DNA of 35,425 bases from an uncultured Candidatus Saccharibacteria bacterium (GTDB taxonomy: Bacteria > Patescibacteriota > Saccharimonadia > Saccharimonadales > UBA4665): assembly GCA_903840315.1 (NCBI GenBank), contig CAIMFK010000014.1:1-35425 (forward strand), read 5' to 3'. Each line of letters opens with the position of its first letter. The first letter of the stretch is position 1. The notes beneath the pieces are model-generated. The model made no database searches and was not told the DNA's origin. It saw only the letters and a list, made by a program, of their open reading frames with translations. Positions 25,446 through 28,500 of this stretch are shown one piece after another. The position numbers and the translations under genes are program-made.

Positions 25446-27737
25446 TCAAACATTATTGTCAAGTTTTTTCAATTTATATGCAGTATATCTTTCTGCAGCT
25501 AGCCTACTGAGTTCTGGATCTTCATCCTTATTCACAAAAATCATCGACGATGCAAGTACAGGATGAACATCATAAAGAATGTCATACATTTTCTTTGCTA
25601 TTTTTCTGTAACCAGGATGCCCTTGAGGACTAGTTCTAAGTTCAATGAAGTGGATTATTTCACGCGCGTTCATTGTAACTTTCCAGCGCATTCTATGACC
25701 CATCAATGTCGCGTATTGAGACTCAATAATGTAGCCTTTTTCATTTAATGAACTGTGTAATGCTAGACTCATATCAAAACATTCTTCGTATAGATCGGTT
25801 AGCCCAGCCTGATCAATAACTTCTGGACAATCATAGCCATAACGAGGAGTTAGTTCTTGCCATTCTAAATCATCAACAATTCGGTGCCTTTGCAAATCCC
25901 TGAATATTCCATAGTCACAAACTATATCCCATGAATAATGTATTTTTTCAAGTGCACGGCCTGGTTTATGTCGCCTATTCATCCTCTCACCAATATATGT
26001 CTCGAAAACTTTTAACTTTCTTTCATAAGACCATGCATTAACTTCATGTCTAATTTCTGCTAAAGAAAGGCTACTATTTTCATATAGCATATCTGGCACA
26101 ATATCTAATTCATTAAGAGGCCAATGATCGGTTAGTGTTACATCATTGGTTTCCATCGAATAAGCCTTGGGCAAATATTTTTTAGTCAATCTTTTAAGTG
26201 ATCTATTCGTCATGGACCTGTACATAGTATATGCTCCACCCCTATCGGGCATATCAGCTCTCTCTAAGAATACGGGAATAGTTTTTCGAGCTTCGTCAAG
26301 AATTGACTGTCCAGCTTGATTTGACTCCTCAAGGTTATCAGCGATTAAATTCATTATTAAACTTTCCAATGCTTGTCCTGAAGCAAAAATACCAACTGTA
26401 GAAGTAGTACTCACTGGTAATACTAGTCTGGCTGCATCACATGCCTGTGCTCTTATTGCATTCTTCCAAGCAAAATCTCTATCTTTCTCAGGAACGGACG
26501 AATTATTACCTATATAATCTGTTAATTCATGAACAATCTTGGAATAATTATCAAAGATCTTATTCATAGTATTTTTATATTTGTCTTCTGTTTCAGCATC
26601 TAATTTATTTGGCGTGTGATATTTATATTCACCATTTTCATCTTTTTTATCATAGTAAATATACCTCGTAGATTGCTCAAGGTAGGCTGCTAAACGACCT
26701 CGCTCCAATTTCTTGGTTAACAAATTAGAGGCTTTTTCAACAACAATATGCTGACCAACCAATTGCTGTACTGAATCATCACCATATGCAGATATTACTC
26801 TTCTCAAAAGGTCTTCATCTTTAGTATCGTTATTCAAAAATTCGTCTTTGAGAATTGTTCTCATATCATCACCCCTACGAGACAATCTAGCCATTGCTGC
26901 AGCTATTGTAACGGGATCAATCTTCTCTGTGAACGCGTATATATTTAGGTCAGTATTAGTTACCATATCATCTATCTTAGATATTTCTGGATGCGCATTT
27001 TTATCATCAGGTTCGTCCAGTACTCCGCCAATATTCTCTCTTAGACTAATAGTTTTGTTAGATATTATTTCCGCGACTGAAGTTGCCAATTTTACTTCAT
27101 GATCTGAAATTTCTTGATTCAATTCTTTTTCGACCAGTTCCCATATTTGATCTGCTATTGCATTAGAATTACCTACTGAGTAAATGACTGGTAATTTTCT
27201 TTTTTTAGCTTCAATTAGATAGCCAGCTCTAACTCTTTCAAGAAAATCTGTATCAAGATTGTCAAAACGATCCCCTTGGTATCTTTTACTGACACGTTCC
27301 TTGAGTATATCGACAGAAGCATCCAGCACAATCATAAGGTCGGGAACCATTTCACCAACAGCAAACTCAATTATATCGTTCATTTTTTTATAATCATTTA
27401 TGTCATTCCGAGCATAATACTGAATTGCGAGGGTAGTTAAATAGCTACGGTCCACTAAACATGTAATGCCCTGATCTATACATTGTCTAATAAATCCAAG
27501 GGATTGACTCCTGGCAGCGTTATATAACAGCACTTCAGTTTTAGTATTCATGGGATATCTAGGGTCTTGAGTTAATCTTCTAATAGCTCTTGCTGTCACA
27601 TCATTCTGACTATCAGGTTCTCTCATTATTTTATAAGGTATATTTTGCTGTGCTAATTTATCGGCTAATAGTTTAACCTGTGTTGTCTTGCCAACACCCT
27701 CCGCACCCTCAATTACAATGTATCTGCCCTTATTCAT
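25446..27737 (-). CDS. Fused thymidylate kinase and tandem flavin-dependent thymidylate synthase
   Basis: A 763-residue three-part protein. Residues 1-208 are a dTMP kinase with P-loop GAEGVGKTTQ (11-20), DRSYLTTLA (96-104) and the LID-region KRYQGDRFD (151-159). After a linker come two ThyX-like halves (about 265-490 and 540-735). The ThyX motif RHRxxSxNExSxRY is split. Half 1 has RGRLAAYLEQSTRY (346-359), keeping EQSxRY but losing His, Ser and Asn. Half 2 has RHR (617-619) and a Q..TPRY end at 627-633 with three extra residues between. Half 2 also has NAREIIHFIELR. The enzyme would make dTMP from dUMP with methylene-THF, FAD and NADPH, then phosphorylate it to dTDP. The start overlaps the dcd stop by 8 nt. 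Catalytic competence of each half is not certain. Confidence 0.85.
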   Translation of the reverse strand: MNKGRYIVIEGAEGVGKTTQVKLLADKLAQQNIPYKIMREPDSQNDVTARAIRRLTQDPRYPMNTKTEVLLYNAARSQSLGFIRQCIDQGITCLVDRSYLTTLAIQYYARNDINDYKKMNDIIEFAVGEMVPDLMIVLDASVDILKERVSKRYQGDRFDNLDTDFLERVRAGYLIEAKKRKLPVIYSVGNSNAIADQIWELVEKELNQEISDHEVKLATSVAEIISNKTISLRENIGGVLDEPDDKNAHPEISKIDDMVTNTDLNIYAFTEKIDPVTIAAAMARLSRRGDDMRTILKDEFLNNDTKDEDLLRRVISAYGDDSVQQLVGQHIVVEKASNLLTKKLERGRLAAYLEQSTRYIYYDKKDENGEYKYHTPNKLDAETEDKYKNTMNKIFDNYSKIVHELTDYIGNNSSVPEKDRDFAWKNAIRAQACDAARLVLPVSTTSTVGIFASGQALESLIMNLIADNLEESNQAGQSILDEARKTIPVFLERADMPDRGGAYTMYRSMTNRSLKRLTKKYLPKAYSMETNDVTLTDHWPLNELDIVPDMLYENSSLSLAEIRHEVNAWSYERKLKVFETYIGERMNRRHKPGRALEKIHYSWDIVCDYGIFRDLQRHRIVDDLEWQELTPRYGYDCPEVIDQAGLTDLYEECFDMSLALHSSLNEKGYIIESQYATLMGHRMRWKVTMNAREIIHFIELRTSPQGHPGYRKIAKKMYDILYDVHPVLASSMIFVNKDEDPELSRLAAERYTAYKLKKLDNNV

Positions 27738-28443
27738 ATGATAATCCGTCTATTTTTGTTGGCATAACTCTTTTATCGTTATAGGCCTTTGGGAGCATCA
27801 TTTCAGGAGTCCAATTTCTCATCACATGCTCGAGGTCAGTGCCTTGTTGGTATTTACCTGAAAAACCTCGATCTCTACCGGAACCATAATTTCCCTCAAC
27901 CTCATTGGTTTCATGGAAAACTGCTTGAGCAATTCTTTCACCAACTGGCAATAAAACCATTTCCCTATTATTAAGATTAAATATTTCTAAAGTGAGTCGA
28001 TTAATATATCCTGGATCTACCCATCCAGCATCGAAGCAAACTGCAATTCCATTTCTTGCCCAACTCGATCGAGCTTTAAGCTCATAAGCTCCTGGAGGAG
28101 TTATACCAAAAAATTCATGTGTATGAGCTAATATTCTTTCTCCGGGTTTGATTGCAATTACAGGATGGTTTTCTGGAATATTGGCAAGTGGTTTGAACCC
28201 GTATCGATCACACCATTCTTTATGAGGCATTGCCTTGAATGGTCCATCAAAATATCTCTCAACATCTTCCCGGTCTAAGGGATTATAGATAATTCTTTCG
28301 TCATTGTTCTCTATTCTGTAGTAGTAATAGCCAAGGGTAACGTCGAGACTAGCATGAGATACATGCTCGTCAGCATATGGGAAGCATTTAATGTGGCCGT
28401 CCTTGATTGCCTGTCGAATTTGAATATTACTATAAACTCCCAT
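27730..28443 (-). CDS. dcd: dCTP deaminase (Dcd family)
   Basis: A trimeric dUTPase-fold enzyme that deaminates dCTP to dUTP. Family motifs: VSHASLDVTLG, ELKARSSWARNG, DAGWVDPGYINRLTLEIFN with the catalytic Glu of TLE, and LPVGERIAQAVF. I chose the ATG at 28443, since GGAGGA (28447-28452) lies directly upstream; the 16 extra codons before it would be untypical. The 237 residues are somewhat longer than usual because of a C-terminal tail. Some relatives (in Methanocaldococcus and Mycobacterium) go directly to dUMP; I cannot tell here, though no separate dut is in the window. It overlaps the tmk-thyX gene by 8 nt. Confidence 0.9.
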   Translation of the reverse strand: MGVYSNIQIRQAIKDGHIKCFPYADEHVSHASLDVTLGYYYYRIENNDERIIYNPLDREDVERYFDGPFKAMPHKEWCDRYGFKPLANIPENHPVIAIKPGERILAHTHEFFGITPPGAYELKARSSWARNGIAVCFDAGWVDPGYINRLTLEIFNLNNREMVLLPVGERIAQAVFHETNEVEGNYGSGRDRGFSGKYQQGTDLEHVMRNWTPEMMLPKAYNDKRVMPTKIDGLSYE

Positions 28444-28469
28444 TTGTCCTCCGTTTAATCTAATTTTAC

Positions 28470-28484
28470 GATTGATTGATTGAT
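28470..28484. repeat. Short GATT tandem repeat (3.75 copies)
   Basis: GATTGATTGATTGAT in the leader region of dcd. It could vary in length by slippage and alter dcd leader spacing, but it is too short to call a contingency locus. Confidence 0.3.
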
Positions 28485-28500
28485 ATACCAAGCATAAGAT

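Follow-up and report, generated by a model that had tools for sequence, protein, structure and literature searches.

A dTMP kinase fused to a double ThyX in Saccharimonadales, with the ThyX active-site residues divided between its two halves

The flavin-dependent thymidylate synthase ThyX is a drug-target enzyme whose active site is assembled between subunits, so that its residues are difficult to study at each site separately. The PolB structure has dUMP contacted by R82, H83 and R193 of one monomer together with E94′, S96′, R98′ and R166′ of its neighbour (PMC5003785), and in the ThyX of Mycobacterium tuberculosis the RHR residues and R199 come from subunit A, S105, R107 and Y108 from subunit C, and S71 and R190 from subunit B (PMC6514825). 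A further form was pointed out by Valas and Bourne in 2009, whose passage on Chloroflexi states that the ThyX there 'contains a domain duplication', a version that 'has not been characterized' (PMC3224940). Both the kinase and the ThyX described below thus belong to known families, and the duplication, which the preliminary description of our locus had guessed might be known in related genomes, has been on record since that passage appeared.

We analysed a 35,425-nucleotide stretch of DNA (the window) comprising contig CAIMFK010000014.1 of the uncultured Candidatus Saccharibacteria assembly GCA_903840315.1; all features below lie on its minus strand unless another locus is named. A single open reading frame of 763 aa (25446..27737, ATG start, stop codon included), of an architecture shared in the order, had been described as a dTMP kinase fused to two ThyX-like halves, and alignment to PF02223 and PF02511 confirmed this. 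The Pfam Thymidylate_kin domain spans aa 9-187 (27177..27713; 2.8e-26, 92.8 bits against a cut-off of 27), and Thy1 (PF02511) matches in two stretches (7.8e-39, 133.9 bits against a cut-off of 24.8). The kinase domain matches a Tmk in the PDB (3.1e-19) and contains the Walker A sequence GAEGVGKT (aa 11-18) and a DR pair (aa 96-97), of which G16, K17 and R97 are invariant in 52 fusions; the fusion also passes the TIGR00041 dTMP kinase equivalog (107.1 bits against a cut-off of 83.25). ThyX half 1 occupies aa 262-520 (26178..26954) and half 2 aa 528-757 (25467..26156). Neither half holds an intact RHRxxSxNExSxRY motif, the parts of which are divided between them: the two motifs noted earlier were both read in the frame, RGRLAAYLEQSTRY in half 1 (aa 346-359, 26661..26702) and RHRIVDDLEWQELTPRY in half 2 (aa 617-633, 25839..25889), the latter three residues longer than the canonical motif and diverged in the loop beyond RHR.

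The double ThyX was modelled with AlphaFold2 from 28 sequences at a pLDDT of 88.9 and a pTM of 0.85, and the best PDB matches listed for this model were all ThyX, at a TMt of about 0.7 and covering one half each. The full-length chain, modelled from 52 sequences, reached a pLDDT of 79.2 with a whole-chain pTM of 0.61, and in this single-chain model the linker of about 42 residues (aa 211-252, 26982..27107) fell below a pLDDT of 50 and is predicted to be disordered.

Matches to the fusion at E <= 1e-30 were present in 146 of 247 genomes of the same order, and in about 80-84 of the 247 the match was unbroken over the kinase and both halves, up to the end of half 2 (the upper figure of about 84 was counted by hand from the match table, and a few of these genomes were flagged with a stop codon). 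The preliminary description had proposed looking for the same architecture in other Saccharibacteria; besides these roughly 80 genomes it recurs, equally continuous, in named Saccharibacteria metagenome-assembled genomes (MAGs). This recurrence refutes the reading that an assembly or gene-calling artefact joined separate Tmk and ThyX genes, to which we give virtually no chance.

The window genome is 98.4% complete, and the fusion is the sole ThyX and the sole Tmk found in it. A search of this genome for ThyA found none, and thymidine kinase gave marginal matches only. DHFR and SHMT are present, the former at G000:C1:18017-18472 even though ThyX is the only thymidylate synthase found. Directly upstream of the fusion, and overlapping its start by 8 nt, lies dcd, encoding a dCTP deaminase of 253 aa (27730..28491; TIGR02274, 94.6 bits against a cut-off of 92.8). 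Because ThyX and Tmk each occur once, no ThyA was found and dcd is adjacent, this organism probably relies on the fusion for its dTTP. With dcd followed by one two-step enzyme, these small-genome bacteria would have a dTTP pathway that is unusually compact and that they probably cannot do without. Among relatives, dcd stands beside the fusion or close to tmk and the double thyX gene (thyXX). One relative has a 369-aa open reading frame in the dcd position (L155:6906-8015, minus strand), longer than the 253-aa deaminase of the window, and in another an additional, free-standing Tmk-like gene separates dcd from the fusion (L147:6548-7153, minus strand).

We next numbered the residues after Thermotoga maritima ThyX, using profiles of the halves aligned with solved ThyX structures, with each other and with single-domain ThyX, and counted them across 128 double ThyX. 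In these profile alignments, half 1 of the window protein supplies E354, S356, R358, Y359 and R437, equivalent to E86, S88, R90, Y91 and R147, and half 2 supplies R617, H618, R619, N690, R692 and R701, equivalent to R78, H79, R80, N163, R165 and R174. Half 1 retains S88, R90, Y91 and R147 in 128 of 128 sequences and E86 in 127; it lacks R174 in all of them (L, M, S or C stands there) and keeps H79 in just 5 and R78 in 21. In relatives this first arginine is mostly replaced by W, D or E, which makes the RGR seen in the window unusual. Half 2 retains R78, R80, N163, R165, R174 and E58 in all 128 and H79, hence an intact RHR, in 127; it never has R147, which is Gln in all Patescibacteria and Q, P, S, A or G elsewhere. 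In the fused group an LTPRY sequence stands at the far end of the half 2 motif, and its alignment to SxRY is unsure; this PRY is largely restricted to the fused Saccharimonadales and is unlikely to be the original SxRY.

The contacts of PolB and M. tuberculosis ThyX map in our alignment to R78, H79 and R174 on one side and E86, S88, R90, Y91 and R147 on the other, and all of these main dUMP-contact residues are present when the halves are pooled, the first set in half 2 and the second in half 1. As aligned, the split follows exactly the subunit boundary of the solved ThyX structures, and chance falls far short of explaining the complementary pattern, since 128 homologues show these residues with little or no variation. 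The claim that the active-site residues of the two halves complement each other was thereby borne out. That half 1 and half 2 may together build one composite site, which we infer from these residues, is supported because half 1 keeps the site residues of one subunit and half 2 those of its partner. The proposal that one half serves dUMP and the other the flavin stood in part: the halves are specialized, but half 2 gives both RHR and the dUMP-activating R174, and half 1 gives the E/S/R/Y loop and R147. Contacts of the third subunit (B) are not cleanly divided, T55 being Ser in half 1 and Arg in half 2. R165, kept in half 2, is Gln in half 1 of the window's group, and H53, a flavin and folate contact in T. 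maritima ThyX, is replaced by Asp in 125 of the 128 half 1 sequences (aa 320 here, window positions 26776-26778).

The residue split, first described from this fusion, is not specific to it, since every double ThyX shows it, among them unfused ones of other phyla; the same division is present in 49 sequences, mostly from Actinomycetota with some from Chloroflexota. Unfused double ThyX at about 37-42% identity were found in Actinomycetota, in Chloroflexota and in single MAGs labelled Acidobacteria and Rokubacteria. Within the phylum, ThyX occurs in 126 of 380 genomes, mostly as open frames that carry two matches and measure about 430-620 aa; some are single canonical ThyX. The double ThyX is older and wider than the kinase fusion. 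Other arrangements were also seen. Tunturiibacter phage Tunturi_5 has a 482-aa relative, 26% identical over 60% of the fusion (PP885688.1:46531-47976), which is annotated as thymidylate synthase and has a length compatible with a double ThyX. A Rokubacteria-labelled MAG has a 1169-aa open frame in which a Ser/Thr protein kinase precedes the double ThyX (L137:350-3856, plus strand). At L157:6631-8577 (plus strand) a 649-aa open reading frame joins Tmk to a part about 30% like half of a double ThyX; it has no Pfam Thy1 match, and a separate double ThyX and dcd lie alongside.

In relatives, dcd, tmk and thyXX are neighbours, often between rplKA and rplJL, and at one locus (L156:4436-6826, minus strand) tmk and the double thyX share one frame with a single TGA between them, plausibly a pre-fusion state. 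Two types of kinase, about 27% alike, are found in the fusions. The window and 42 further loci have type 1. Type 2, which matches the stand-alone adjacent tmk of unfused relatives, occurs in 13 fusion loci and in most of the unfused neighbouring tmk genes. Loci L149-L153, L091 and others carry the same double ThyX as L003 with a differing Tmk type. In trees, the fused double ThyX group together, the exceptions being L158, a long branch that is unfused, and two copies truncated by contig ends. Our first trees interleaved both kinase types, as if the kinase had been swapped many times, and this history was rejected when a tree that kept type 1 together in a single clade proved 38 log-likelihood units better; because that tree is better and is allowed (p-AU 0.901), one kinase switch or two fusions suffice.

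At the level of sequence, the locus presents a single open reading frame, a conserved architecture and a segregation of residues between the halves. We think it quite probable that the protein is a bifunctional dTMP synthase-kinase with composite half 1/half 2 ThyX sites and a tethered Tmk. The ThyX-ThyX part would convert dUMP to dTMP with FAD, CH2-THF and NADPH, and the tethered kinase would convert dTMP to dTDP. Two chains would form a pseudo-tetramer resembling the ThyX homotetramer, with half 2 in the place of the 'A' subunit, setting RHR on FAD and dUMP and R174 on dUMP, and half 1 in the place of the 'C' subunit, setting the E86-S88-R90-Y91 loop and R147 on dUMP; of the four sites, two would then be intact and the other two degenerate. 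A different reading, in which half 2 alone is active as half 2-half 2 pairs through RHR, R174 and its own LTPRY loop while half 1 is a structural remnant, draws on the T or S, the R and the mostly Y or F that half 2 of the fused group offers where S88, R90 and Y91 may align. We consider it highly improbable: the half 2 position of R147 is Gln, never Arg, R90 and Y91 are mostly absent from half 2 outside the fused group, PRY does not fall on the old motif in the merged alignment, and the E/S/R/Y and R147 of half 1 are invariant or nearly so across phyla, unlike a remnant. The ThyX part might instead have a changed substrate or be an inactive flavoprotein, with thymidine coming from salvage. The change of H53 to Asp, that of T55 to Arg in half 2 and a TIGR02170 thyX equivalog score below the cut-off (73.6 against 87.9 bits) fit such a loss, and members of this bacterial group commonly rely on other cells; against it, every known dUMP contact is kept between the two halves, the gene lies together with dcd and Tmk, and the window genome yielded no ThyA and gave only marginal thymidine kinase matches, so that we regard this as very unlikely.

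Channelling of dTMP to Tmk across a fixed interface with ThyX would add to the composite-site reading and is not an alternative to it. Consecutive pathway steps on one chain, conserved in about 80 genomes, speak for it, and the preliminary description had supposed that dTMP is handed directly to the kinase. That supposition was not supported: the linker is predicted to be disordered and the whole-chain pTM of the single-chain model is modest in value at the 0.61 given above, tmk and thyXX are unfused neighbours in relatives, and two kinase types so little alike at the same place are hard to reconcile with a specific interface. Such channelling is, in our judgement, unlikely, and tethering and co-expression fit better; under the composite-site reading, the fusion may serve co-expression, fixed stoichiometry and proximity. 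More broadly, and only tentatively, we suggest that a widespread class of ThyX could be obligately asymmetric, its pseudo-tetramer having two composite sites, not four, and its gating altered by Asp in place of His53, and that in Saccharimonadales it may have been joined to two different dTMP kinases to make a dUMP-to-dTDP enzyme. Such a natural split would let each side of the site be altered alone and the sites be counted, and it corrects motif-based annotation, by which either half on its own appears broken.

Neither the Tmk-ThyX fusion nor the exact residue split came up in a search of open-access papers, where absence is no proof. Compared with canonical homotetrameric ThyX, or FDTS (PF02511; TM0449 of T. 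maritima, M. tuberculosis ThyX, PolB), the double ThyX has the same fold and, once its halves are pooled, matches the full dUMP contacts and the RHR on FAD; it differs in having two diverged halves per chain with one side of the site each, and Asp for H53 in half 1. The duplicated Chloroflexi ThyX is apparently of the same tandem kind, Chloroflexota homologues (L110, L119) being among our matches, and the passage devoted to it notes the duplication without a residue split or a kinase fusion (PMC3224940). With bacterial Tmk (PF02223, TIGR00041) the fused kinase shares the P-loop and DR motifs and a dTMP kinase score, but here it is an N-terminal domain of a fusion and not a separate enzyme. The bifunctional DHFR-TS enzymes of protozoa, which likewise carry neighbouring steps of the dTMP pathway on one chain, are alike in idea; their thymidylate synthase is unrelated, and in the Saccharimonadales protein it is the next downstream step, not the folate step, that has been joined.
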